Part shown: positions 13,216 to 63,423 of the stretch, in pieces
Position numbering within the stretch: position 1 is the first letter of the stretch
How the letters are laid out: every line of letters begins with the position of its first letter
Source of the DNA: Apostichopus japonicus
Taxonomy: Eukaryota > Echinodermata > Holothuroidea > Aspidochirotida > Stichopodidae
Assembly: GCF_037975245.1 (NCBI RefSeq)
Contig: NC_092577.1
Span: 31,213,398-31,277,397, forward strand
Direction: 5' to 3'
DNA: 64,000 bases
Translations under genes and position numbers: made by a program
Notes under the pieces: model-generated
Database searches by the model: none
The model's input: the letters and a program-made list of their open reading frames with translations, nothing else
Told to the model about the DNA's origin: nothing

Positions 13216-14320
13216 GAGAATCTGATCACATTGTGGTATGAAAACATCTATAACCATATCGAGTAGAATGTATCATTGGTGATATCTTTTTTCTACCAAC
13301 ATTCTGCCAGCCCCGTTTCATCGCAGGAAGCTTTATATATTTGGGCTCATTTTGGTCACCCTTACCCTCCCCCCCCCCCACGTGGCGTGACCAGTCGAGA
13401 GGGACAGGGACGAGAAGAGGGAGAATATGGTAGTGGGAGTTCAGAAAAAGGGGAAGAGGATGGAGAAGGACAATATCTAAAATAGTCGAAGGTGGAGCAA
13501 CAACTTTCGGGACAATAAAGAAAAGAAAAGCAAAGAAAAGCACAGAACAACTCTGTTGATTTCTATCTTGAAGAAAAACTAATTAATAGCACAACCAAGA
13601 AATGTGTCATAGAATTAGCTCCTTTTCGGTATTACAACCTTCTCATAGTTTCCGCTCTAAAGAAGATTTTTACTCAGCCTTCGTTACAACCTCCAGGCTA
13701 CAGAAGCGTAAACCGTTTACCTTCTTCCAAAAAGAATAGATTAATATTAACGTTACTATGTATTATTATATCTAAACATTATGGAAAACTATCCAGATGT
13801 ATAGTCATTTGTGCTGCTTGCGCGCGTGGGCGCATGTGTGTGTGCGTTGCTGTTGCCACGGAAACTAACCTTTACCGAGAAAAAGTCGTAAGTCGAAAAA
13901 TTCGTAAGTAAACTGTGAAATGTCAGTCACGTTTTAGATATATACTTCCGCCCTTATATACGGTACCGCTAAAGACCAAGCCTGCTCACCCATAACCAAA
14001 CTTTCTTCTTTTTAATGTCAGAATATTTTCAGTTAAAAAGTTAATTACATTGTCAACTTGTGACCTTCCTTCCTTATTTATGGGGGATTATTTTCAGGAG
14101 GTAAAACTTCTCGAAGTGAAGTGAAGCTTTGAACTGACTTTTTTTTCCAACGATAACAGGCTTGTCTTGTCTTTTTAAGATGTTGTCTTCTTAAAACATA
14201 GTTTGAGACAAATATTTGGTAACTTTGACCTAAGCCAAAGATTTGTAAAGCGCTAAAGGCGGTACATGGATGACTCCTATACGTCTTACACGTGCAAACG
14301 TACGTGAAGCTAAAACATGC
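13216..14320. other. Intergenic, no gene recognised
   Basis: Contains a C-run followed by a purine-rich stretch (13368-13470) and AT-rich sequence. Short opposing reading frames here are low-complexity shadows. No gene is supported. Confidence 0.4.
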
Positions 14321-15242
14321 GCGCGTATGGAACGCCATTTTTGCATTTATTCAATAATTACAGATATCTTTAATTCATTTCCAGATATCTCTAATTCATT
14401 TCCAGATATCTCTAATTGAAACATATTTGAGATATCAGAAATTGAATTCGAGATATCGAGAATTCGATCATAGATATCCAAAATTGAATTAGAGATATCT
14501 GGAATACATTAAGAGATATCCAAAATGAATTAGAGATATAAAAAATTCGAATTCGAATATGGAACGCCATTTTAACATTTATTCAATAATTACAGATATC
14601 TCTAATTCATTTCCAGATATCTCTAATTCATTTTCAGATATCTCTTAGTCATTTCCAGATATCTCCAATTCATTACCAGATATCTCTATATTTCAATTCA
14701 AGATAATGGAATTCCATTTTCTAGATATCTCTAATTCAATTTTGGATATCTCTAATTCGAAGTCTTGATATCTCTATTTGAAGTTTGGATATCTCTAATT
14801 GCATTCCAGATATCTCTTATTGTATTCCAGATATCTCTAATTCGAATTCTTGATATCTCTAATTCAATTTAGATATCTCTAATTCGAATTCTTGATATCT
14901 TGAATTCAATTTTGGATATCTCGAATTCTTTTCTTGATATCTTGAATTCAATTTTGGATATCTCGAATGCAATTTTGAATATCTCTAAATTCAATTCGAG
15001 ATATCTTAAATAATGTTTCCTTTTTTTGATATCTTTAATTTATTTCTTGATATCTTTAAATTCAATTTAAGATATCTTAAATAAAATTCAATATATCGAA
15101 AATGAAAATTTCTGATATCTCAAATTGAATTCAAGGTATCTTCAATAATTAGATATTTCTTTAATTTAATTCGAGATATCTAAAATTAATTGAAGATATC
15201 TCTAATTATTGAATAAATGTTAACATGGCGTTCCATACGCGC
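14321..15242. mobile_element. Palindromic element with GATATC-phased interior, copy 1
   Basis: The termini are inverted repeats beginning GCGCGTATGGAACGCCAT and continuing into TTTATTCAATAATTA. The roughly 850-bp interior is a tandem array of about 20-21 bases per unit, each with a GATATC palindrome followed by CTAATTC-type sequence. The terminal sequence occurs again internally at about 14559-14600, so the element looks partly duplicated or nested. There is no coding capacity and no clear target-site duplication. It is related in design and in terminal sequence to the element at 49934. Confidence 0.78.
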
Positions 15243-18126
<2,884 letters not shown>

Positions 18127-19724: not shown

Positions 19725-22247
19725 TCATCCTCAAAACATGCCCGAACAAACTAGAATCTTCCGTAAGTTTGTAGGTCTTGTAAATGAAACGACAAGTGGT
19801 TCTGAGAAAACTGATTTCAGAAGTTCGGTGCTTTGAAGTAAATGAAAATTTCTTCTGAATGATATCGGCCAGTGGTGCAGGGAGACCAGTTTGGAATGCA
19901 GCAACCAATGGTGCCGTTTTGGAATTGGTTTTATACGTCAATGTTTTCAGTGCGGGGTTTGCTTTTTGGCCTTTTTTGATGGCATTTAAATAGAACCCCG
20001 AAAATACTGTCTGTTGAGGATTCAGGTGTTGTGACAGTTCTTTTGTGCGAGAATCAGAATCGACGCTATCGAGGAACATGCGTCGAATGCGCAACGCTTG
20101 ACTGTATATGGAATGTTTCTGGTACAATATGAAGTGGGATGGCAGTTATGCTCGTTCGTGGGTTTATTTGAACTAGTCTCTTCTGAGTGAGCCATTTTGT
20201 ATAGGATCACAGTGAACGTCAGTGTCTACAAATATCTGCAGTGAATTTGATTTTTTGATGAAACGAGTTGGTGGAGAGATATTTAGGCTATAAATAACGC
20301 CAGTATAGGTCCACCGTCACCGCAATGTTATTCTAATAACTACTTTTAGGTGTTTTCTATGGTTGACACGTAGGGGATGGGTAGTGTACACCCCCACCCC
20401 ACCCCCAACACACATCCCATGAATCCGCCATTGTATAATAGCTCTTGTTTGTAACCTCATGATCAAATTCGGGTTATATATTTATTCATTTCTATTTAAA
20501 CACAGCATCATCATCATCATCGTATTCTAGCTACAGCTTTGATGTCTTCCAAATGAGGCCATGTGCCTATAACGGCAAATTTTACATGCATGGCCAAACA
20601 TGGGAACCGTTACCATGTGCGTCTTGTACCTGTAGGAACCTCATCAGCTACTGCACCATAGACACTTGTCCAGCTTGCGACGGATCACTGACGGAACCCG
20701 TAGGAGACCAGTGCTGTGGTACATGCGATGGCGAGACAGTTGGTAAGTTTATACTATACTTACACCCAGGGGCGGACTGGTTCTTAAAACCGGCCCGGGC
20801 ATTTTTCCACCTAGACCGGCCCATTATTCATTGATATGCTACTTACATAGTGATCGCCGTCCTGTGGAAGGGGTCTAAGGGGAGGGGTGCCCCCCCCTTG
20901 AGATTTTTTTTTGGAAGTTAAGGACTGCCTAGATGCAAAATGGTGCTATATTTCTTCATTTTGTAGGTTACAATAATCCTTGAAAAATGACCCAAAAATA
21001 ATTTTCCAGAAGCAACATTTGATTAATCTGAGGAAAGTTAAAAACGTAAACAAAAGTAGACAAAAATATATGTTTTACATTGGAGTTTATGTAGTTTTTC
21101 AAGCATTTTGTGACAACATGCTGTAAAAATGAATTCTGATTCCCACAGTTAAACATATATTTCTACACAGCCCGTCTGTATTCTATTAACTACTGTGAAA
21201 ATGGGCTGTAATATTTACCAGGCTCCCCAGCCCACCGGGCCACCGGCCCACCGGGCATTGCCCAAATTCCCGTATGGCCAATCCGCCACTGCTTACACCG
21301 TAACGTTGTACGCGCGATCTGGAATTTATAACCTCTGTGTAATAGTAACACAAGTGACCTGGTTCATTTTGGCGGGGTTAATCACAAAATAAGCCAACCG
21401 GGGGGGGGGTGGATGGGAAGGGGGGGGGGTTCGGTACAGTAAGAGAAAACTAGAAGGGTTCGACGTGAAACTGGTATATATATATATATATATATATATT
21501 GCCGATTCTTTGGTAACAAAGTTTGTAGGATCGCAGAAATAAAAACCATGAATCCAGACTAACTATTGGGTATCCAACCATATGTTACTTAAGATCCATA
21601 GATAGCCATGCCTTTAACTTGTAACACACGGTACCTTTACCAACTGACACTGTACTACGTGAGTGTCACGGTTTACCGTGAGATTCGCGGTTCAGTTGCG
21701 CAAAAATCATTATAACCAGCAAAACAAAGTCAAGCAGATTAAAAACGATGCGTTTTATTTCATTATTTTTAGAACGTCTTGTGAAATTTTCCAGGTTTCG
21801 GACATCAATCTCCAGTTCTTCAGGGTGTGTGTGTGTGTGTGTGTGTGTGGAGGGGATGAGTGGGGGGGGGGGGTTGAAGCAGTTTGCGCCTGATGGTCTT
21901 TAATACATTATTTCAAATGGAGTCTGGATTTCTATATTGATCAATAATAAGATATTCAAAAACAAAGATTTTGTTCAGTGTTTCTCAAACAGTACCAACT
22001 TTGTTCAACGTTTATACTTCTCTCTCCTCCCCCCTCCCACCCCTCCCAATCCCCAGAGCCAAATGAGGAGGATTTCTGTGTCTGGAGAGGCGTAACGTAC
22101 CAGAATGGAGACAGCTTTACACTAAACCCCTGCACTGATTGTACTTGTGAAGCTGGCAAAGGTAAATGCGAGGTGCGTTCTTGTGGACCTCCAGAGTGTG
22201 ATGATCCTGTCGAAGTTGAGGGTGAATGCTGTCTAGTCTGCCCATAG
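19197..22247 (+). CDS. Secreted protein with two VWC domains (complete, 163 residues)
   Basis: Three coding exons join in frame: 19197-19260, 20506-20742 and 22057-22247, all junctions phase 1 with GT-AG ends. Residues 1-20 form a signal peptide (MTTSLFLAALALG start, Ala/Val/Leu core). Residues 22-33 are a Ser/Tyr-rich linker. VWC 1 runs from Cys41 to Cys95, VWC 2 from Cys108 to Cys162, each with ten cysteines and the ECC.VC or QCCGTC end typical of the family. The protein should be extracellular; related VWC proteins bind TGF-beta/BMP ligands or matrix, but nothing here specifies a ligand. It is the closest complete relative of the exon pairs at 420 and 3641, with the same exon plan. The TAG stop falls one base before a GTAAGT donor, so the last intron lies in the 3' UTR. 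Confidence 0.88.
19735..20215 (-). mobile_element. Reverse-transcriptase fragment, Penelope-like or related retroelement (antisense, intronic)
   Basis: The minus strand reads IYSQALRIRRMF, then DSRTKELSQHL, then further down PLVAAFQTGLPAPLADII. This order matches the C-terminal part of reverse transcriptases whose signature is IPYSQALRLRRIC followed by an acidic block and a T(Y/F)-P-LP-(I/L)I segment, known from Penelope-like and some other retroelements. The upstream HPTSYCTRNIPY is in a neighbouring frame, so one frameshift has occurred. It lies inside intron 1 of the VWC gene in antisense orientation and ends beside a (TA)n tract. It is a dead fragment. Confidence 0.68.
20767..21291. mobile_element. 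hAT-like non-autonomous element with exact 8-bp duplication
   Basis: The 525-bp element begins CAGGGGCGGACTGG and ends CCAATCCGCCACTG, imperfect inverted termini. CTTACACC is duplicated exactly at 20759-20766 and 21292-21299. It sits in intron 2 of the VWC gene, shortly after the donor at 20743. The interior has no transposase. Terminal motif and target duplication point to the hAT superfamily, but its sequence differs from the other hAT-like families in the window. Confidence 0.88.
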
Positions 22248-36399: not shown

Positions 36400-39300
36400 T
36401 CACTGACAAATCATTGTGAGCAGGTAATCCAACATCTGGATCAACGTGGTTTCCCGTGGGTGAACGTTATCAGGACACTCCTGTACAAGTGTCATGTCCC
36501 AAACATCTAGAAAAGAAATCCGCTCATCTTTACTAAATACATCTCTGAGGATCCTCTCGCCTTGAAGCGCCACCCAGTCACTAGAGACCAATAGAAATGC
36601 TCCGATCGAGTGCTCTCGAATATTCGCGCTTCTCACGATTATTCGAGTCTCGGGACGTCTCTCTAGTAAACGATCTATCGCACTTTTGACTGACAATAGC
36701 CGATCTCTGTAGAAGGTTTTGTCTGGGTACACCAAATGTGCCCACAGAGAAAGAATTATGTACACCCCTGGGCCCCCTTCTTGGTTATTATCTATTTCGT
36801 CGGCGATATAACCCAGTTCCCTGACTGACCCGGGCGTTCCCTTCCTCACAGGTGGGCCATGGAATTTAAAGAGCATAGTCGTATTTTGGCCGGTGCAATG
36901 TCTCATCCACTTGTTCCCATTATCGACGCAGTTAATTTTCTTTAGTATTATATACTCGTACATTTGTCTGGCCGTGGAATCACCGTAGAAATACATTGAT
37001 TTGAAATTGAGACAAGACTGGACTTGTTCCGATTCGAAATGAGTGAGCCGACAGTCGAAAGGTTGCCAGATACCCTTGTGAAAGAAACCCCGAGTAGAAA
37101 TTCCCGTTGGAACTGGTTGAAAATTACACAGAGGTAACTTAGAAGTCGTGAATGATGACGTAATGTTCGAGGCTTCCACTTGGAATGATGGCATTGGTAA
37201 GGTAGTAAATGGAACCTTTGTCCTGAAATGAAGAACGTTCGAAAAAGTCTTTTTGTATCATATTTTTTTACAATTTCATAGATACTCACATTCATACAGT
37301 ATCCGTATAGCCATTACTCCACCCCCAACCCCAACCCCACCACCATACCCGACCCCTTTTTTGCTGTTGTAAAAGGGTACTTAAATGCGAAATTTTGCGA
37401 CTTACAAAGGAAAAAAACTTACGTTGAAGAAAATATCTGTACGTATACCAGTAAACAAACCTACCATCTTTCCTTAATTTTGTCGAAAATGTTCAAGCTT
37501 CATGTAGAGGTCAAATTTTGTACATATACATTTCATTATTTAAACTACAAATATATTATAATCTACATCGTGCTAATAAGTAGGGGGGGGGTCAGGAGAG
37601 GTGCAATTAAAATTAGAGGTGCTATTAAAATATGACCAGATGCTAATCACGTGGTAGATTAGGAGTACATATGTTGAGTTAGAAGGTAAGAACGTTACTC
37701 TTAAAAACTTTTGTGAACTTTTGTATATAGCTGACTTTGTAATTCTAACTTCACCGGGTGTTTTTTTTATATCTTTATATAGGGGAGGAGGAGAGGTTGT
37801 CTTCGTTTGCAAGTCTGTAACATCTGCAACAATTTTTCAATGATGTATTAATGTATTTCAAATTCACCTTCAAATGTGAACAACAATTGGAACTTATTAA
37901 AGTGTGCCCTATATACGGCAAAGTAACTTGAGCGTTACTATATTGCAAACTTCTTAGCTTCAATGAAAACAACTTTCTGTATAACCGACAATCTGGCCAC
38001 AGAATTGTGCTAGGAAGCATTTGAAGTTGTACCTCTCTTTAAAGAGCTTAAACTTCTTACTCTCTTTGACCTATATCATTATCAACTTGGGATTTTTTTT
38101 TATATAAATTTCACAAAGGTACACTCCCAGTAGCTTTCAATAATTTCTATTGTAGTAACATTCCTTTAACACTCGTTATAAACACTCTCTAAGTCAACCA
38201 TATTCTAGAACTATCCGCAGTCAAACCCAAGTGTATACGAAGTACTGGTGTACATTTCTGGAACTCACTTGATCAAGATATCAAAAACTCAAATACTCTT
38301 AACTCATTTAAAAGAAAACTCAGTCATTACCTTTTAACTAATAGTACAAACCACCCACGCTGACTTGTTACATTGTCTCTTTGTATGGATTTGCTTTTAC
38401 CTTTCTTCGCTTCCTCTTTATTTATTTTTTCTCTGTTTTTCCTTATCTCTTTACTCTCTCTGTACTTATATGTGATTTTTGAAATTCTCTTTTGTTTGTT
38501 AAGGGTCCAGACTCGAAAAGTCTCTACTTACTTCTGGTTCCTCCACTTCCATTGATTGTAGCATATTTTGTACTTTGTTATTGTTATTTCATCATAATGT
38601 GAGTAAATTACTCATTGACTCTGTTACTGTTTATATATATGGAAAGTGGAAAATAAACTTGAAACTTGAAGTTAAATAACCGGTAACCACAAAATAAGGT
38701 ATACAGAAAGTGCTCCCCCCCCCCCAGCTCATCTATTGCTAAATACAGAATTTAATCGAAAGTAAGCTATTTAAAATGTTATGATAAATGAAAATCTATA
38801 AACATGGAAATTGGATGGTAAGTTTTCTTGGGGGGGGGGGGGGGGTTGGGGTCATCCGAACCCCAAGAACCCTCACCCCTAACCCACTTTGTGCAGTGTA
38901 GAGCCGAAGTATGATGACTGATAAAAATTCGACCTACCGTAGGAGAGCTTTGTATTCTTTTGGCGTGATTAACTTTTTTAACTTTTTGGTTGACTTTGAT
39001 GCGTCGAAGTTGAAATGAGTCCAATCCCGACATGAGATATTGCTGTTTTCCGCTTTGTTGCAGAACCAAGGCCCATGAGTGTGATTAGCGCTGAGATTAC
39101 AGAATGGAATCTATAATATAGAGAAATTAGTCCAAAACACAGACAAAATTGTAACATGAAAATAATTAATTTTTTTATGAAAATTTTGTGAAATTATTAT
39201 AAACACACTGTGCAAGTGTTGGCAATGAATATATATATATATATATATATATTATGTTCTGCAATTATTTTTCATATACGAATAGAAGATAACTGTGGGG

Positions 39301-42300
39301 CACAACGAAGGATCTTGATCGCAAAATTGACACTTTTTCAATGGAGACTACTTCGTAATATTCTCAACATTAGATGGACCAATAACAATTGGTTATCAAA
39401 CGATGAGCTCTACAATGAAACCAACCAAACACCTTGGTCATCCATAGTCGCACATAAAAGATTGAGGTGTTTTCGGTCATGTAGCAAGACTCCAGGAGGA
39501 CGCTCCAGCAAAGGTTGCTATAAGAGAAGCACTGAGACATACTGCTAAACCAGTAGGAAGGCCCGTGACAACCTTGCTTGGAAAAATAAAGTCGCAATTT
39601 AAGGACGTTAACATTAACATAGCTCTACTTTCTACAAGAATTTAAGTAACCTTTTCTAGCGCCAAGGCGCTGCAACATATTTCTGCATCAAATATCAATT
39701 GTGGTGATGGAATCGTGTTCGAAATGCACAGGGTGTATAGCCTCTTCAGGTATAGTTAGACGATACATAGCAAGCCAATGAATATACGCAGTCGCTTTAC
39801 CATGTTTACGCACAAGCGCGTTCATGAGATATTACACAAATAATGAATGGTTATGAGTCGCAATTTAAGGACATTAATATTAACAATTTCGAGGAAGCAA
39901 TAAACCTTGCGCAAGATCGTGATACGTGGCGGAGGTTAGTCACTGCGCATGTCGGATAGACGAGACTCAACTACTACTACAATGGAAGATATTATGACAT
40001 GTTGATGCCAAAAAGCCACTGGTTTATACGTGTCATATTATAATGATGGCTATACCTTGTGTATGGCTTTATATGCCTCAAAGTATTTGACTATCTAATT
40101 ATATATTATTTGCTATACGTAATGATATAACATAGGTATTGTCTACATATGTCTCTATGTAGGCCTATCTATTTAAAGTATAGGTTTCGACTATAGTGAT
40201 GCAGACATGCTAATGGACTGCTGCACTATTACGTGGATTGTAAAGTTTAGATGTTGTTGGGATTATATTTGAAAAAACAAGACCGCTCTACAGTGGCGGA
40301 GCGTCCATACAGTCAGGGATCGGATGCCCCCCCCCCCCCTGACGGACTCAAATGGACTGCTGGCGCCCTTTTCAGCTATTTACCACTTTTTATACTTATT
40401 GCGCTCTCATCTACCTATTGACATTTGTCACATTTTCTTGGCGATGACACCTATTTATTCTTCGTTTATCTGCAAATTAGCAAGGCCCGGAAAGGGTCAT
40501 TTCCGGCGATCTAGGGAGTATCTTTACTCAAGAAATGTATGTACGCTCCGCGCCAACCTGTGGTGGCTCTCCGCTTAGATAAAGTCGAAAGCGCCCATAC
40601 AGATCATTCTCGCCCCTCTGACCAATACCCCTAGCTCCGCCACTGCCGCTCTAAGTTAGCCTATATATAGGAAGTACCTATAGAGAGCTTATATGGGCCG
40701 CTTACTTAACCAGTCGGAGCCCCCATGCAACTGTCGCATCTGGATATGAAACAGCATAACGTGACTAAAACGTTAATACTATACCTGTCGTGGTTGGAGA
40801 CCACATTGGACTTTTTCCACATAACTGGTGCCATTCTGGCGCTGTTTCTCAAATCTTCCAATGAACACGAAACTTTCCACAATACCTTCTTGTGTGATCC
40901 CCTTCAATGTGTCTATAACACAGCGAGGATGTACCAATTGTACGCTGACATTTACAATACCCTGCCATCGTAAAGTGAACGAAGCTAAATAAGTTCCGTT
41001 GTCGTAATCAATAAATGTATCGGGCCCAATCGCAGAGTAAGGCTTTTTGGAAAACAGTTTCATCCGTAAGAAGTCTCCCCCGAATGGCTGGATCGAACCA
41101 TTTGCTGTTCTTGCTTCGATTCGTATTATAACTTGTTCAGATACACGGTATACCGTTCTTGGGTTCACTATTTCAACCAAGGATCTATTGAAAGTGCTGA
41201 AGGAGGTAACTTGGTTTCTGAAGACGGTGGTCTGCGGGTTTAACAAGGATAAAAATAGAGGAAACAATATGTTCTTGTTTATAATCAAATTTAATGATAG
41301 CAATCCGTAAACTTTTAACCCCACGAACCAGGATCTTCCATCAAGACTGACCCACGACCACTGACTGACCCATGGATTGACCCACGACCCACCAAACACC
41401 TGTATTCAATGATGCCAAGTAAAATGTATTTATACTCGCCTGCTTCGTAACATTATGAAGTGTGAGGGTGTTGTGTTCAAGTGGTTAATGCAGTGGACTT
41501 GGGATCTAAGGATTACAGGTTCGAGCCCTGACCAGATCATTACGTTGTGTCCTTGGGCAAGGCGCTTTATCTCCATTGCCTCTCTTCACCCAGGTGTACA
41601 AATGGGGACTTGCGAGGTAACTTGTAAATATAGTTGTTTGCGCCGGTTTGTGGCTGCACCCTATGAGAAGTCCCCCGGGGAACACGTGGTTGTGGTGCAC
41701 TGTGGTGCCCCAGGAGAGATTGATTGAATTGTGCACACTTTGGTGTGTAGGTGTGACAAGTTACCAATGACCAGGGTTAAGTTGTAAAATCGTGTGAGAA
41801 GGCCTTGGCCCTGAACAAGACTGTAAACCTAAAAATTAAAATTAAAAATGAATTACTCATACACCAACTAAAATACAGTATACCTGTAGTATTTCTATCT
41901 AATCATGCATTTGCATTCCAGAACCACGTGAGAAGCGCTGGCTGACTAAATACCGCCATTGTGCTGATTGACTTCGAACCATCAACATCATTGACTGGTT
42001 TACGCTATTGTGTGTGTCTGCTGACCGTGGACGATTTTGTTCACAGCAGATAATAGCTCTTTTGTCTCGGAGTTGCTGCATGGCTATATTGGCAGTGCTC
42101 TAATTTTCATAACGGTGATAGCCAACGATATAGGTTAGGCATAATTGCCTGCACGGTAGACCTGTATTTATACTCTACTGAGTAAATTTAGTATCAATTT
42201 AGTATCAATGGAGTGTTAGCTCAGTGGTTAACGCCGGTGCCTTTCAATCATAAGGTCCCGCCCGGTTCGAGTCACTCCCAGATTTATGTATGTCGTCCAG

Positions 42301-48903: not shown

Positions 48904-49933
48904 CTCTGCCTGTTTGTTCATGTATATATTTCCAATCCTAACTTATACATATATTTTCACACATATGCCGATGCATATCAAATATAAGGTATTTCTGTAG
49001 ACATATTTATTTAAAGAGATGATAGAGCACTGACATGGAAATTTAGTCTGATTGGTATATGTAGAGATTTGTGCAGTAAAAAGATGTGACTTTGTGGGGA
49101 TGTGTCTCAGGTATAGTCAGTAATAGCCTATAGTAAACGTTATTCTACGATAGAGCCTTTGTAATTGTGCATTTATCTCTGTTTACTTTCTGGTCTATAC
49201 GTGAGTGTTTACTTGATGTTGCGTTCATCAAGTTTTATATCCCAACTCTTCCCCTCGCCTGCAAATTACATCCAAAAGAAAATGATATGCACCCTATCTG
49301 AACTTCGATGACAGTAATCGAACCACCCCCGGGCTTCGTCACTTTCCAAGGCCGATAGAGCAAAGATAGAAGTTTTCAACTGACATGTCCTTATAGACTT
49401 AAAGATATGATAGCTAATGGCTTTGGATCATAAAACATTCAACTTTTGCCACCATGACTATTTAGATTTTGAGCTAGAAGAGCTCAAAGTTTATCACGGT
49501 GCTCCCCCTTCCCATCTGCCAGTTGTCGCTGCGGAATCTTCTTGTTTCATCCAAGATTTTTTTAAATATCTTTAATCACCTTCAATCCTCCAAATTTTTA
49601 GACCAGTAGTAGTTTATTACATCCTCATCAACGTCCGAGCATCAAAGAACATGGTGATGACTAAAAAAATGCCAACAAAATCAACACAGTAGGGCACTTT
49701 AGGGCTATTTTCCGACAATGGTTAACCTCTCAGGCGGACGTGCACCCCTCTAATTGTGGTGCGATACTTTTATATTCTTCATCACCAGGTATTGGGTCTG
49801 ACGTCGCTGTCCTGGTTTAAAGAGGGCGCCATTTGCGAAAGAATACCAGAGCTGTACATGGATCTGAAGAGAAGATGCATAGATCGACCAGAACAACTCC
49901 CTGGATAGACAATCCGTAAAGTATGAGAGCGAC
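48904..49933. other. Intergenic, no gene recognised
   Basis: No coding exon or RNA gene is supported. A short open stretch near 49820-49900 (EGAICERIPELYMDLKRR) has no recognised relative and no splice context. Confidence 0.35.
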
Positions 49934-50405
49934 CGTATGGCAAGCCGTTTTACTTTTTATTCGATATTTGATGATATCATCAAATATTTGGTGATATCAG
50001 CAAATAATTGTTGATATCATCAAATCATTTGATGATATCATCAAATAATTGCTGATATCAACAATTATTTGCTGATATCACCAAATAATTGTTGATATCA
50101 GCAATTCATTTGCTGATATCACCAATTCATTTGCTGATATCACCAATTCATTTGCTGATATCACCAATTCATTTGTTGATATCATCAAATAATTGCTGAT
50201 ATCAACAAATAATTGCTAATATCAACAAATATTTGCAGATATCAGCAATTATTTGGTGATATCAGCAAATTATTTGGTGATATCAGCAAATTATTTGATG
50301 ATATCAGCAAATCATTTGATGATATCAACAATTATTTGCTGATATCACCAAATATTTGATGATATCATCAAATATCGAATAAAAAGTAAAACGGCTTGCC
50401 ATACG
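49934..50405. mobile_element. Palindromic element with GATATC-phased interior, copy 2
   Basis: The termini are exact inverted repeats for at least the first 55 bases, starting CGTATGGCAAGCCGTTTTAC. The interior is a run of roughly 20-base units, each with GATATC followed by an A/T half such as ATCAAATAATT or AGCAAATCATT. Because each unit is itself nearly palindromic, the 472-bp element can fold on itself at many scales. Its ends align with those of the element at 14321: GTATGG, GCC(A/G)TTTTA, TTTATTC, ATA.TT, GATATC in the same order. No coding capacity. Confidence 0.82.
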
Positions 50406-51192
50406 ACCGCGAAGTGTGGTTCACGCGAAAATGTTTCGGTGGGTCCATGGTAGTGTCCACGTGACCCATTGGAAAATGATTCTACAGATTTCATGCACTC
50501 AGAGGACATATTTCTGAGGGGTGTGGATATATTGAGGATCGAGCCTCAGCCTTTTGATGGAACTCAGTCCTGGGTCTTGGCCCTAAATGCTTGCGAACCG
50601 TTGGCATAGAGCACACTAGTGTCTATAAAGAAATCAAGAACGACAGCTAGGGCACATTCGTTTAAAATGATGGGAAAGGGTTCCTTACATTCCTAGTCCT
50701 TGATGGGGACTGCAAGTGTCCCTCCTGATCCTTTTTTCTACTACACTAAACTAAGAAAAAAAGCCACACCAAAAACAAGTAGAACAAACAATAAACAGAG
50801 CTACTCTCAGGTTTTTAGTTGGCAGGGCGCGTGGCACATCGAACCACCCCTTGCGCGCTCCCAACCCCACAGCTGAAATGAACACTTTTTTGGTTGAAAA
50901 ATACACACCGCGGGAACAAGCTTATACACGAGGAAACCTTGTACGGCAGTTTAAGTGAAACGACTATAAGTAGTAATGCTATATTGACATTTTTCAAGTG
51001 TGCTGTATCATATCCTTCATAAAAATGTCGAAAGTTTTATTTGTTTTCTTTTGTCAATTCAGCAAATTTTCTGTAATTGTACTTAATGGTCATCTTGTGC
51101 GATCCGTATGAATTTAGCCTATAGTAAGTTGAATTGCTTTAAAATAATGATATTGTTGTTTGATGAAATTGTTGTTGTTTCACATACCTTGT
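50406..51192. other. Intergenic, no gene recognised
   Basis: No domain, RNA gene or repeat identified. Confidence 0.35.
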
Positions 51193-51565: not shown

Positions 51566-54500
51566 ATTTTCGCTTTACGCTTTGGACCACCAAACCGATG
51601 GTTAACATGAACTCTAAGGACATTGTAGAAGAGTACCATAATGCGTCTTGCCCGGTCCAAAGCGTGCTTGACCAATTAAACTGACCATTAAATCATTACT
51701 TCATCATCGAGTGTAACCGGACCACGAAAAAGCTTTGGGCCCTAATCCATGCAGCACGCCTTGGACCACCTAACCAATGGGTAACATGTACTCTAAGGAC
51801 ATTGTAGAAGAGTACCGTAATGCGTCTTGCCCGGTCCAAAGAGTGCTTGACCAATTTAAATGACCACTAAATCATTACTTCTTTAATGAGTGTAATTGGA
51901 CCACGAAAAAGCTTTGGGCCCTAATCCATGCAGCACGCTTTGGACCACCTAACCAATGGGTAACATGTACTCTAAGGACTTTGTAAAAGAGTACCATATT
52001 GCGTCTTGCCCGGTCCAAAGCGTGCTTGACCAATTAAACTGACCATTAAATCATTACTTCATCATCGAGTGTAACCGGACCACGAAAAAGCTTTGGGCTC
52101 TAATCCATGCAGCACGCCTTGGACCACCTAACCAATGGGTAACATGTACTCTAAGGACATTGTAGAAGAGTACCGTAATGCGTCTTGCCCGGTCCAAAGA
52201 GTGCTTGACCAATTTAAATGACCACTAAATCATTACTTCTTTAATGAGTGTAATTGGACCACGAAAAAGCTTTGGGCCCTAATCCATGCAGCACGCTTTG
52301 GACCACCTAACCAATGGGTAACATGTACTCTAAGGACTTTGTAAAAGAGTACCATATTGCGTCTTGCCCGGTCCAAAGCGTGCTTGACCAATTAAACTGA
52401 CCATTAAATCATTACTTCATCATCGAGTGTAACCGGACCACGAAAAAGCTTTGGGCCCTAATCCATGCAGCACGCCTTGGACCACCTAACCAATGGGTAA
52501 CATGTACTCTAAGGACATTGTAGAAGAGTACCGTAATGCGTCTTGCCCGGTCCAAAGAGTGCTTGACCAATTTAAATGACCACTAAATCATTACTTCTTT
52601 AATGAGTGTAATTGGACCACGAAAAAGCTTTGGGCCCTAATCCATGCAGCACGCTTTGGACCACCTAACCAATGGGTAACATGTACTCTAAGGACTTTGT
52701 AAAAGAGTACCATATTGCGTCTTGCCCGGTCCAAAGCGTGCTTGACCAATTAAACTGACCATTAAATCATTACTTCATCATCGAGTGTAACGGGACCACG
52801 AAAAAGCTTTGGGCCCTAATCCATGCAGCACGCTTTGGACCACCTAACCAATGGGTAACATGTACTCTAAGGACATTGTAGAAGAGTACCGTAATGCGTC
52901 TTGCCCGGTCCAAAGAGTGCTTGACCAATTTAAATGACCACTAAATCATTACTTCTTTAATGAGTGTAATTGGACCACGAAAAAGCTTTGGGCCCTAATC
53001 CATGCAGCACGCTTTGGACCACCTAACCAATGGGTAACATGTACTCTAAGGACTTTGTAAAAGAGTACCATATTGCGTCTTGCCCGGTCCAAAGCGTGCT
53101 TGACCAATTAAACTGACCATTAAATCATTACTTCATCATCGAGTGTAACGGGACCACGAAAAAGCTTTGGGCCCTAATCCATGCAGCACGCTTTGGACAA
53201 CCAAACCGATGGTTAACATGAACTCTAAGGACGTTGTAGAAGAGTACCATAATGCGTCTTGCCCGGTCCAAAGCGTGCTTGACCAATTAAACTGACCATT
53301 AAATCATTACTTCATCATCGAGTGTAACGTGACCACGAAAAAGCTTTGGGCCCTAATCCATGCAGCACGCTTTGGACCACCAAACCGATGGTTAACATGA
53401 ACTCTAAGGACATTGTAGAAGAGTACCATAATGCGTCTTGCCCGGTCCAAAGCGTGCTTGACCAATTTAACTGACCATTAAATCATTACTTCATCATCGA
53501 GTGTAACCGGACCACGAAAAAGCTTTGGGCCCTAATCCATGCAGCATGCTTTGGACCACCAAACCGATGGTTAACATGAACTCTAAGGACATTGTAGAAG
53601 AGTACCATAATGCGTCTTGCCCGGTCCAAAGCGTGCTTGACCAATTAAACTGACCATTAAATCATTACTTCATCATCGAGTGTAACCGGACCACGAAAAA
53701 GCTTTGGGCCCTAATCCATGCAGCACGCTTTGGACCACCAAACCGATGGTTAACATGAACTCTAAGGACATTGTAGAAGGGTACCACAATGCGTCTTGCC
53801 CGGTCCAAAGCGTGCTTGAACAATTTAAATGACCACTAAATCATTGCTTCTTTAATGAGTGAAAAGGGACCACGAAAAAGCTTTGGGCCCTAATCCAGAC
53901 CAGAACGCTTTGGACCACCAAACCGATGGTTAACATGAACTCTAAGGACATTGTAGAAGAGTACCATAATGCGTCTTGCCCGGTCCAAAGCGTGCTTGAC
54001 CAATTAAACTGACCATTAAATCATTACTTCATCATCGAGTGTAACCGGACCACGAAAAAGCTTTGGGCCCTAATCCATGCAGCACGCCTTGGACCACCTA
54101 ACCAATGGGTAACATGTACTCTAAGGACATTGTAGAAGAGTACCGTAATGCGTCTTGCCCGGTCCAAAGAGTGCTTGACCAATTTAAATGACCACTAAAT
54201 CATTACTTCTTTAATGAGTGTAATTGGACCACGAAAAAGCTTTGGGCCCTAATCCATGCAGCACGCTTTGGACCACCTAACCAATGGGTAACATGTACTC
54301 TAAGGACTTTGTAAAAGAGTACCATATTGCGTCTTGCCCGGTCCAAAGCGTGCTTGACCAATTAAACTGACCATTAAATCATTACTTCATCATCGAGTGT
54401 AACCGGACCACGAAAAAGCTTTGGGCCCTAATCCATGCAGCACGCCTTGGACCACCTAACCAATGGGTAACATGTACTCTAAGGACATTGTAGAAGAGTA

Positions 54501-55840
54501 CCGTAATGCGTCTTGCCCGGTCCAAAGAGTGCTTGACCAATTTAAATGACCACTAAATCATTACTTCTTTAATGAGTGTAATTGGACCACGAAAAAGCTT
54601 TGGGCCCTAATCCATGCAGCACGCTTTGGACCACCAAACCAATGGGTAGCATGTACTCTAAGGACTTTGTAAAAGAGTACCATATTGCGTCTTGCCCGGT
54701 CCAAAGCGTGCTTGACCAATTAAACTGACCATTAAATCATTACTTCATCATCGAGTGTAACGGGACCACGAAAAAGCTTTGGGCCCTAATCCATGGAGCA
54801 CGCTTTGGACCACCAAACCGATGGTTAACATGAACTCTAAGGACGTTGTAGAAGAGTACCATAATGCGTCTTGCCCGGTCCAAAGCGTGCTTGACCAATT
54901 AAACTGACCATTAAATCATTACTTCATCATCGAGTGTAACGTGACCACGAAAAAGCTTTGGGCCCTAATCTATGCAGCACGCTTTGGACCACCAAACCGA
55001 TGGTTAACATGAACTCTAAGGACATTGTAGAACAGTACCATAATGCGTCTTGCCCGGTCCAAAGCGTGCTTGACCAATTAAACTGACCATTAAATCATTA
55101 CTTCATCATCGAGTGTAACCGGACCACGAAAAAGCTTTGGGCCCTAATCCATGCAGCACGCTTTGGACCACCGAACCGATGGTTAACATGAACTCTAAGG
55201 ACATTGTAGAAGAGTACCATAATGCGTCTTGCCCGGTCCAAAGCGTGCTTGACCAATTTAACTGACCATTAAATCATTACTTCATCATCGAGTGTAACGG
55301 GACCACGAAAAAGCTTTGGGCCCTAATCCATGCAGCATGCTTTGGACCACCAAACCGATGGTTAACATGAACTCTAAGGACATTGTAGAAGAGTACCATA
55401 ATGCGTCTTGCCCGGTCCAAAGCGTGCTTGACCAATTAAACTGACCATTAAATCATTACTTCATCATCGAGTGTAACCGGACCACGAAAAAGCTTTGGGC
55501 CCTAATCCATGCAGCACGCTTTGGACCACCAAACCGATGGTTAACATGAACTCTAAGGACATTGTAGAAGGGTACCACAATGCGTCTTGCCCGGTCCAAA
55601 GCGTGCTTGAACAATTTAAATGACCACTAAATCATTGCTTCTTTAATGAGTGAAAAGGGACCACGAAAAAGCTTTGGGCCCTAATCCAGACCAGAACGCC
55701 TTGGACCACCTAACCGATGGGTCATATGATTTTTTAAGACAGTGTAGAAGAGTACCATAATACGTCTTGCCAGGTCCAAAGTGTGCTTGACCAATTTAAA
55801 TGACCACTACATCATCACTTCTTAAATGAGTGTCCATCTC
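51566..55840 (+). repeat. 179-bp satellite array, about 24 monomers, higher-order organised
   Basis: Monomers begin at GCACGCTTTGGACC (51754, 51933, 52112 and so on) with a strict 179-base period. Three variant types can be read: A (AACCAATGGG with ATTGTAGAAGAGTACCGT), B (TTTGTAAAAGAGTACCAT) and C (AACCGATGG with TAACATGAAC). A and B alternate as a 358-base dimer through 51754-53185. C-type runs follow. A nine-monomer block of about 1612 bases starting at 53186 repeats from 54798, marked by GGACGTTG, GCATGC and GGGTACCACAATG variants. The last monomer (from about 55695) is diverged. Each monomer carries GCACGCTTTGGACC and, 65 bases on, its reverse complement. Confidence 0.97.
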
Positions 55841-59289: not shown

Positions 59290-60830
59290 GTCGTTTGTAT
59301 TTGTCAAATACTCTTTGGACCGGGTAAGACGCATTATGGAACTCTTCAACAATGTCCTTAGAATTCATAAGACCAATTGGTTGGGTGGTCCGAGGCGTGC
59401 TGGTCTTCACAAGGGCCTAAACATATTTGCAAGTCCATTAACATTCATTAACGAAGTAATGATTTAGTGGTCATTTAAATTGGTCAAGCACTCTTTGGAC
59501 CGGGCAAGACGCATCATGGTACCGTTCTACAATGTTCTTGGACTTCCTGTGACCTATTGGTTAGGTGGTCCAAGGCGTGCTGGTCTTGATTGGGGCCCAA
59601 AGCTTTTTCGTGGTCCCTTTACACTCATTGAAGAAGTAATGATTTAGTGGTCATTTAAATTGGTCAAGTACTCTTTGGACCGGGCAAGACGCATTATGGT
59701 ACTCTTCTACAATGTCCTTAGATTACATGTTACCGATTGGTTAGGTGGTCCAAACCGTGCTGCATGGATTAGGGCCCAAAGTTTGTTCGCGGTCCCTTTG
59801 CACTCATTTAATAAGTAATGATTTAAAGGTCAGTTTAATTGGTCAAGCACGCTTTGGACCGGGCAAGACGCATTATGGTACTATTCTACAATGTCTTTAG
59901 AGTACATGTTACCGATTGGTTAGGTGGTCCAAGGCGTGTTGCATGGATGACGGCCCAAAGCTTTTTCGTGGTCCCGTTACACTCGATGATGTAGTAATGA
60001 TTTAGTGGTCATTTAAATTGGTCAAGCACGCTTTGGACCGGGCAAGACGCATTATGGTACTCTTCTACAATGTCCTTAGAGTTAATGTTACCCATTGGTT
60101 GGGTGGTCCAAGGCGTGCTGCATGGATGAGGGCCCAAAGCTTTTTCGTGGTCCCGTTACACTCGATGATGTAGTAATGATTTAGTGGTCTTTTAAGTTGG
60201 TCAAGCACGCTTTGGACCGGGCAAGACGCATTATGGTACTCTTATGCAATGTCCTTAGAGTTCATGTTAACCATCGGTTTGGTGATCCAAAGCGTGCTGC
60301 ATGGATTAGGGCCCAAAGCTTTTTTGTGGTCCCGTTACACTCATTAAAAAAGTAATGATTTAGTGGTCATTTAAATTGGTCAAGCACTCTTTGGACCGGG
60401 CAAGACGCATGATGTTACCCTTCTACAAGATCCTTAGACTTCCTACGACCCATTGGTTGGGCGGTCCAAGGCGTGCTGGTCTTGATTAGGGCCCTCATGT
60501 TTTTATTTCAGTTCCCGTTACATTTATTTAAAAAAAATGTTGATATAATGGTCATTTTAATTGGTCAAGCACTCTTTGGACCGGGCAAGACGCATTATGG
60601 TATCCTTCTACAATGTGTCAAGAATTCATATGACCCATTGGTAAGGTGGTCCAAGGCGTGCTAGTCTTGATTAGGGCCTAAAGTAATTGTTTACATTAAT
60701 TTAAGAACTGATGAAGTACTGGTCATTTTAGTTGGCCAAGAACTATTTGGACCGGGCAAGATGCATTATGGTACCCTTCTACATAGTCATCGGAGTTCAT
60801 ATGACCCATGGGCCATAGATAAACCTCTTT
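59290..60830 (-). repeat. Diverged 179-180 bp satellite array in reverse orientation, about 8-9 monomers
   Basis: CTCTTTGGACCGGGCAAGAC recurs about every 180 bases (59311, 59491, 59671 and on to about 60749). Each monomer is the reverse complement of the 51.6 kb satellite: the CAAGCAC(T/G)CTTTGGACCGGG and GGTCCAAGGCGTGCT motifs are shared. Monomers here differ more from one another, especially beyond 60400, and no higher-order repetition is visible. This looks like an older edge of the same satellite. Confidence 0.95.
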
Positions 60831-61608: not shown

Positions 61609-63373
61609 ATGAGAAAAGATCATTTCAAAATGATACAGAATAGAGTATACACAATCAGCCTCCACACGAACAGTGCCTTCAAAGTTATGAATGATCTGCG
61701 ATGGAATAAGGAGCTCTGCGATATTGTGCTGTGCATCGAAAACCAGAAGTTCCTGGCCCACAAGGTGGTCCTTGCTGGATGCTCTCCATACCTCTTGGCC
61801 ATGTTCACAAATGGTATGCTGGAGACAGCTAAAGACCATGTGGAGATCCAGGGTATAGACCCGGTTGCAATGGAGATTATTTTGGCCTTTATGTACACAG
61901 GAACGATAGAAATTACGGTGGAAAATGTACAGATTGTCCTGGGTGGAGCAAGCATGTTGAATATGACCAGTCTACGCAATGTTTGCTGCACATTCCTACA
62001 GTCTCAACTGGCTGCTACAAATTGCCTTGGTAAGCACATTTATTTTGCTGTCTGGATGTGAAACAAAATGAGAGCATTGTGGTCAAGTACAGTAGTTACG
62101 GCAATGGACTATATTAACGATTGCAGGTTCTGGTCTGAATGTCCAGATCATTACGGTGTGTGTTTGGGCAAGATATTTATATCTATTGCCTCTCTTTTTC
62201 CAAGTGTATAAATGGAGGTCTGGGTGGTAACTTGTGAAAATATTTGCAATCTGTGGCTGCACCCTGTGGGACGTCCTGCAGGGAACACGCAGATGTAGCG
62301 CATGCACTGTAGTGCCTTAGAACCCAGTGTTTGAATTGTGCACACTTAAGAGTGTGGGTGTGAAAAGTTACCCATGATGACTGTGGGTAAACTGACATTG
62401 TAAAAGTTGTGTGAAAAGGCCTTGACCTTATACCAGACTGTAAACCTTCAACTTTGAAACTTTAAGTTCAGTGTAAGTCACAGAAGGTAGGATTGGGAAC
62501 ATCTTAGAGAGAAAGGTTAAAGGAATAACAAAGGCAGGGATAAAAGACTGTTGGACTGAATATGCTCGCTTTGAAAATTGGCTCCAAAGGCCTCACCACA
62601 ATACACAGTAAGCCGCTATTGATTACGTAATACGCTTGAAATTTCATATAGGTTACTGAATAATCTAATTCGTCTTTGATCCCTGCCTTTGTTGTTCCTT
62701 AAAAGGTAAAATCACTGGAACCTGGCAGACAAAAAGTCAATTTTCAAAGCGATTGTATTCAGTCAAACAGGAAGCAGTTAACTTAAAAATTGAATATTAG
62801 AGAGTTTTGAGGTTACTGAAAAATATAAATCGTCTTTGATCCCTGCCTTCGTTGTTCCTTTAACGGTAAAATCACTGGAAACCTGGCAGACAAAAAGCAT
62901 TGTGAGTGTTGTACCATTTGAGCCCACATCTGGTGATATCATTTATAGTTATCTTGACAGTTTAATATTACTGTATTATAAATCTCTTAAATTATGATAG
63001 ATATTTATAAATATGATTTTCACTTGCATATTTCTTGTGTATATTATACAGGTATTCATTCCTTCGCTGATATGTATTCTTGTGAAGACCTGAAGAATGT
63101 CGCACAGAGATTTATCTATCAGCATTTCCCAGAAGTTATTCAAACGGAGGAGTTCTTCTTAACCCCCGAGCAGGACGTTGTGAGGCTCCTCAGGAGCGAT
63201 CAGTTGCAGGTCGACAACGAGGTGGAAGTCTACGAAGCAGCGATCTCTTGGTTGACCTATGACCTAAAGAACAGAGGTCACTGTTGTTGTTCAATTCTCC
63301 AGCAAATTCGATTTGCTCTCCTTGATAAGGATTATCTCATCGAAAGAGTCTACAAATCGGATTTTATCAATAG
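61609..63373 (+). CDS. Kelch-like (KLHL) protein, N-terminal BTB and BACK exons (partial)
   Basis: Exon 61609-62029 (140 codons, ends phase 1 at GGTAAGC) and exon 63052-63373 (starts after TATTATACAG, ends phase 2 at AGGTAAAAG) join in frame. The ATG at 61609 follows directly on an in-frame TAA, supporting it as the start. Residues about 25-135 are a BTB domain with LCDIVL at 36-41, FLAHKVVLAGCSPYLLAMF at 48-66 and the ending AATNCLG. Residues about 142-247 are a BACK domain (FADMYSCEDL, EEFF, LLRSDQLQVDNEVEVYEA, WL). BTB-BACK-kelch proteins are substrate adaptors of Cullin-3 ubiquitin ligases. The kelch repeats that would choose the substrate lie past the open donor, outside the window, so the subfamily cannot be set. 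Confidence 0.92.
62068..62470 (+). mobile_element. tRNA-derived SINE, copy 2 (intronic)
   Basis: This stretch in intron 1 of the kelch-like gene aligns in order with the SINE at 41457: ATCATTACGGTGTGTGTTTG, TTGCCTCTC, CTGTGGCTGCACCCTGTGGG, GGAACACG, TTGAATTGTGCACACTT, GAAAAGGCCTTG and GACTGTAAACC. The A and B boxes are more decayed (GGTTCTGGTCTGAATG), so it is the older copy. Confidence 0.8.
62515..62900. repeat. Direct and inverted copies of a 90-base unit (intronic)
   Basis: GGTTACTGAAT...GTCTTTGATCCCTGCC through CTGGCAGACAAAAAG occurs at about 62651-62735 and again at 62810-62899. An inverted partial copy (AAAGGCAGGGATAAAAGAC) lies at 62532-62550. All lie in intron 1 of the kelch-like gene. 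Confidence 0.75.
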
Positions 63374-63423
63374 GTAAAAGAGAAGTGTTAACAAACTACT
63401 TATCTGTAAAGCAGTGTAGGTAA

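Follow-up and report, generated by a model that had tools for sequence, protein, structure and literature searches.

Results

Locus, E2 and its relative E1

We analysed a 64,000-nucleotide window of the Apostichopus japonicus genome (C17:31213398-31277397) and searched the whole genome (671,581,487 bases, 35 contigs) for related sequences. The genes of the window are animal-like, with host exons at 36403-37257 and 40782-41405 on the minus strand and at 61609-63374, 377-760, 20463-20831 and 21951-22244 on the plus strand; their domains are NXPE4_C, neurexophilin, BTB/BACK (kelch-like) and VWC. The window also holds a perfect (TATC) run at 16439-17665 (about 307 copies, 1,227 bp) and a 179-bp satellite in two blocks, 51577-55821 (92% matches) and 59299-60809 (83%), which contains the motif CATGTGACCCATTGG. 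Two related elements, which we call E1 and E2, are the subject of this study.

E2 occupies 49936-50403 on the plus strand, reads TATGGC...GCCATA and at 468 bp has the size of a MITE. Exact inverted arms, a 6-bp duplication and the match of its array to the left array of 3.2-kb elements described below mark it as a probable non-autonomous element of IS3EU type. The target-site duplication, CGACCG, is perfect (6/6) and lies at 49930-49935 and 50404-50409. The first-pass annotation had recognized a real element but drew it at 49934-50405, 472 bp; because the leading and trailing CG belong to the duplication, we have corrected its limits. A description with 4-bp duplications and GTATGG ends was rejected, since the outermost base at either end changes along with the duplication beside it, leaving 6 bp and TATGG ends.

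The inverted arms of E2 are exact over 91 bp, counted from GTATGG, that is from 49935, which bears out the earlier claim of exact termini. Equally sound was the claim of a GATATC-phased interior: GATATC occurs 19 times, against a mean of 0.14 and a maximum of 3 in 2000 mononucleotide shuffles. The left terminal segment (49936-49972, plus strand) is outside the array, and its first 27 bases, free positions included, gave the pattern used to search for ends throughout the genome. The array itself, 49973-50366, has 20 cores spaced 20-21 bp apart, 19 of them exact; the sole 40-bp gap between GATATC copies spans a unit reading AATATC. Its order, for which the positional logic is taken from a related copy on C16, is the dyad TGATATCA, a free base, the dyad CAAWT(N)AWTTG and a second free base. 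To the right of E2, near 50456, stands CACGTGACCCATTGG, by eye similar to the satellite motif CATGTGACCCATTGG. An empty-site search within the 64-kb window found neither the E2 nor the E1 flank a second time, and none of the 40 copies scored among 314 candidates has exactly E2's form.

E1 is a related older element of 912 bp at 14326-15237 on the plus strand, flanked by CGCGCG (14320-14325) and CGCGCT (15238-15243), which match at 5/6 positions. A second copy of its left end lies inside it at 14558-14600 (plus strand), 95.3% identical to the outer end over 43 bp. The ends of E1 and E2 had been said to align, and they do: 32/44 bases are identical, ungapped, through the first GATATC, while the best of 200,000 random draws from the window (draws on E1 or E2 skipped) reached 26/44. 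The interior units had been said to differ. They are distinct, but less so than stated, as the E1 unit GATATCTCTAATTCATTTCCA and the E2 unit GATATCACCAATTCATTTGCT, each present twice in exact form in its own element, have 17/21 bases in common. These comparisons support the view that E1 and E2 have diverged from each other but belong to one kind of mobile element whose plan is conserved, and that the phased palindromes are more than chance microsatellites. An ordinary microsatellite is ruled out by the ends, the duplications and the copy number.

A genome-wide family with a sharp target preference

The 27-position terminal pattern, with at most one mismatch, matches 655 genomic ends (317 + 338), while the reversed pattern gave zero in both counts across the same genome. 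Individual locations are known for about the first hundred of the 655 matches listed, and both E2-type (TATGGCAAGCC) and E1-type (TATGGAACGCC) ends are found among the matches. Phage and viral-contig searches returned no match, the pattern of the viral scan having one free base too few.

In the fetched loci, 27/28 paired E2-type elements, E2 included, have exact 6-bp duplications, the exception (L017) matching at 4/6. To these can be added two long copies, one on C16 with CGCCCG at both of its ends (L044/L045), 20,787 bp apart, and one on C17 with CTCCCG at both (L047/L052), 20,435 bp apart, as well as a 9.1-kb copy (L053) with CGCCCG on either side. An exact duplication therefore flanks 30/31 two-ended E2-type copies in all. 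TATGG..CCATA ends are found in E2 and the paired copies, within the mismatches of the search, and one end of L033 reads TATGA. For E1-like ends, 7 of the 9 listed were examined, and GATATC arrays are present at 7/7 of these other E1-type loci; four E1-type loci have both ends, with exact duplications in 3/4 and a 5/6 match in the fourth.

In the 29 exact duplications counted with L053 left out, C stands at position 5 in 29/29 and CG at one end in 29/29, and their G+C content is 81%, compared with 37% in the window. As read from these inserted copies, the apparent target site is CGNNCG-like.

Two further arrangements of ends were seen. At one locus (L050, C4:22474935 and 22475246), a pair of like-oriented ends is 311 bp apart, a doubling that resembles the 14326/14558 left ends of E1 and looks like a rearrangement within the arms. 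At another (L056:1365-1383), one CGGGCG is all that separates a back-to-back pair of E1-type ends, as if one element had inserted exactly next to another.

Long copies encode an integrase-like transposase

The two long copies, C16:29793053-29813839 and C17:6325041-6345475, are 20.4-20.8 kb in length. Compared outside the middle of the C17 copy, they are 99.7% identical over 6,452, 99.5% over 1,215 and 99.6% over 282 aligned bases. This identity, taken with their differing duplications, indicates that they are separate, recent insertions rather than one duplicated locus.

On its plus strand the C16 copy has an N-terminal exon that is also present in the 3.2-kb elements, then an HTH_7-like domain (Pfam, 1.7e-5) upstream of the transposase core, and an integrase-core transposase in two pieces (Pfam rva_4, 6.8e-8 and 2.9e-74). 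For the two core pieces NCBIfam gave only IS481 (0.018) and IS3 (0.0016), both below cut-off, and the best NCBIfam match for the helix-turn-helix exon, HTH_Cbp1 (3.5e-6), is below cut-off as well. A 282-aa stretch of the transposase is identical and stop-free in the C16 and C17 copies. Two C12 copies, with agtacg beside the one end seen, have a stop inside this stretch and look like a duplicated locus. The C16 copy also contains a 364-aa stop-to-stop ORF with a match to HECT ubiquitin ligases (8.8e-8), antisense to the transposase and seen in this one copy (L051:2221-3312, minus strand; C16:29801520-29802611).

The transposase stretch has 91 matching pieces in the genome, down to 27% identity. 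C17, which makes up about 5.5% of the genome, holds 40/91, some of which belong to one locus, and 38 fall within 15.4-25.6 Mb; the window itself is at 31.2 Mb of C17. One possibility is that this cluster is a non-recombining or repeat-rich block. The 3.2-kb copies have no transposase ORF among ORFs of at least 75 aa, nor has the 9.1-kb copy among ORFs of at least 110 aa, and on visual inspection the fetched shorter copies contain none of the 91 matches. Copies of 3.2 kb and 9.1 kb were therefore rejected as autonomous partners.

Length and 6-bp duplications of the long copies would also suit another superfamily with duplications of this size, such as Polinton/Maverick or Dada. Polintons/Mavericks are 15-20 kb long, with 6-bp duplications, DNA polymerase B and capsid genes, and Dada is a superfamily with 6-bp duplications. 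Pfam searches covering 11 of the C16 copy's stop-to-stop ORFs (two listed ORFs and the shorter ones lay outside the scan) found neither polymerase nor capsid, the sole transposase found is rva_4, accompanied by HTH_7, and the ends read TATGG..CCATA. We regard membership of such a superfamily as highly improbable.

E2 as a deletion derivative

A consensus of the 3.2-kb elements was built from 14 copies of 3.0-3.3 kb. Its left and right arms agree at each of the first 239 alignment columns; individual copies depart from this, L022 for instance by a deletion in its right arm. Common to the 3.2-kb element and the copies of about 20.5 kb are the right array and the left 1 kb with the first coding exon.

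Unit for unit, E2 matches the left array of the 3.2-kb consensus, apart from an additional 21-bp unit, and then switches to the right end, of which it has the final 91 bp. This switch falls inside 34 bp (50314-50347, plus strand; positions 380-413 counted from 49935) found in both places, at consensus positions 359 and 3088, so that relative to the consensus E2 lacks about 2.7 kb between two array units. By this comparison, E2 arose from a longer, 3.2-kb-like relative by a deletion between two units of the array. Alignment of E2 with the 3.2-kb copies leaves 8 mismatches and 21 gap bases, the latter corresponding to the one missing unit, and a copy on C4, which does have that unit, shows 20 mismatches. 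E2 may have jumped as a miniature, or it may have been formed by deletion after a longer copy inserted.

The same alignment bears on the evolution of the units. It had been asked whether concerted evolution homogenises the units within each element, and here the outcome was mostly negative: since E2 and the 3.2-kb elements correspond position for position in the left array, the inheritance of units goes by position, without homogenisation within a copy.

The array: hairpins, slippage or protein sites

The first-pass annotation had proposed that the palindromes act either in hairpin formation or as a protein-binding array. On the hairpin view, the palindromic units and inverted arms would be extruded as hairpins or cruciforms, and mobilisation would use these structures as substrates or pass through them as intermediates. 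The predicted foldback of E2 is strong, with a z-score of -32.8 against dinucleotide shuffles, and exact arms of at least 91 bp arose in 1/5000 shuffles of unit order, a match beyond what palindromic units lead one to expect. Each unit is palindromic, however, and much of the hairpin energy follows from this alone: 40 random unit orders already reach -188.7 +/- 4.1 kcal/mol, compared with -205.4 kcal/mol for E2, and the foldback is mostly retained when the order is shuffled.

A closer look was taken at the C16 copy, which has 42 clean units: 20 measure 20 bp and 22 measure 21 bp. Since GATATC was used to call the units, its constancy is uninformative. Outside the core, several positions are invariant, among them A-A at 10-11 and T at 13 (n=42), whereas all four letters occur at the lone bases that border CAAWT(N)AWTTG to left and right (n=42). 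A conservation test anchored on the spacer was blurred by the mix of 20 and 21 bp and gives no support. If hairpin stems were being maintained, the free bases that face one another would need to pair. Instead, they are complementary in 6/42 cases across the spacer dyad, against 11.3 in shuffles, and in 9/49 across TGATATCA, against 14.2, counts that are non-independent because the two arms have units of common descent. On the two sides of TGATATCA, the flanking bases are the same letter in 18/49 cases, against 10.1 in shuffles (P 0.004), for which we offer no explanation. The upkeep of hairpins is not favoured by this local test, and the 6-bp duplications and DDE transposase would, by comparison with known families, point to ordinary cut-and-paste. 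We regard a role as secondary structure as improbable.

Alternatively, the arrays may be functionless, a minisatellite grown by slippage inside a transposon end and carried along with it. The units are in tandem, E2 and the 3.2-kb left array differ in length by one unit, and arrays of this kind invite recombination. Copy L029, 316 bp long and flanked by a perfect AGACCG duplication, carries a short array on the left and hardly any on the right. Full arrays may thus be dispensable, unless this copy was shortened after it had inserted. However, a passive repeat fits poorly with invariant positions that adjoin fully free ones, with a plan kept in the E1 lineage despite ends diverged to 73%, and with the fact that the transposase-coding C16 copy, the 9.1-kb copy and the 3.2-kb consensus each have an array at either end. 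On balance we think it unlikely that the arrays lack a function. A row of putative protein sites fits the pattern of fixed and free positions better than hairpins do, and it is this half of the earlier proposal, a candidate protein-binding array, that the letters of the array favour.

Discussion

E2 is, in our judgement, likely to be a miniature non-autonomous IS3EU-type DNA transposon, on which the transposase of the long copies would act in trans and whose arrays are candidate binding sites. In those parts of the literature available to us, IS3EU elements are described with TA..TA ends and usually 6-bp duplications (PMC10045372) and with termini TAYGG..CCRTA (PMC12730594). The elements described here fit the IS3EU superfamily (with GingerRoot) in their TATGG..CCATA ends, in their duplications and in an integrase-like DDE transposase, whose weak similarity to IS3 and IS481, with scores below cut-off, is at the level of resemblance only.

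Other features set them apart: several hundred base pairs of phased dyad arrays at both ends, a form of about 20.5 kb with a HECT-like ORF (in one copy), and the CGNNCG target preference. None of the three was met in the portions of the IS3EU literature searched, including PMC8268682 and PMC12730594; Repbase entries fell outside that search. Foldback-like arms on an IS3EU-type element may thus be new to the literature covered by those portions. In common with MITEs in general, E2 is short and non-coding, keeps both ends and is a deletion derivative of a longer element. It differs in that 34 bp of homology link the two array units brought together by its deletion, making its body a continuous dyad array.

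The arms invite comparison with foldback elements. Members of the P superfamily have a P-type transposase and 7-9 bp duplications. Galileo, which belongs to that superfamily, and likewise FB, Tetris and a sea urchin element have, as far as the consulted sections describe them, long, internally repetitive inverted arms and copies that vary in size. Unlike in Galileo and the P superfamily, the duplications here are 6 bp and the transposase is of the rva_4 integrase type, and Tetris units measure about 220 bp, compared with about 20 bp. As duplication length and transposase place our elements outside the P superfamily, the foldback likeness is one of convergent architecture and not of membership. 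Repeated secondary transposase sites have been reported for Galileo and proposed for repetitive arms generally, in the sections consulted of PMC3573991 and PMC4079207.

We propose a model where the transposase made by long copies would cut at the TATGG/CCATA ends and insert the element into CGNNCG-like sites. The two alternating dyads could offer repeated candidate sites to the helix-turn-helix domain of the transposase or to a partner protein, the identity of the protein being a guess. Protein bound in this way might load both ends and draw them together. Any unit could recombine with any other, giving rise to short derivatives such as E2 that retain both ends and would still be movable in trans. 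We raise tentatively, as somewhat short of an even chance, the broader idea that an IS3EU-type transposon independently evolved a foldback architecture, in which dyads held in register serve as a cooperative platform for loading transposase and as a built-in generator of miniatures.

The transposases of IS3EU elements are relatives of retroviral-type integrases, and to our knowledge little is known about how they find their ends. The series in this genome is nearly complete: two recent coding copies, shorter copies of 0.3-9 kb whose duplications are intact, a sharply defined target motif and an array of two dyads that can be read. It makes the recognition of ends, the choice of targets and the origin of MITEs directly testable. 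In a broader context, our analysis suggests that foldback arms are not a family but an architecture that has been reached in more than one superfamily.
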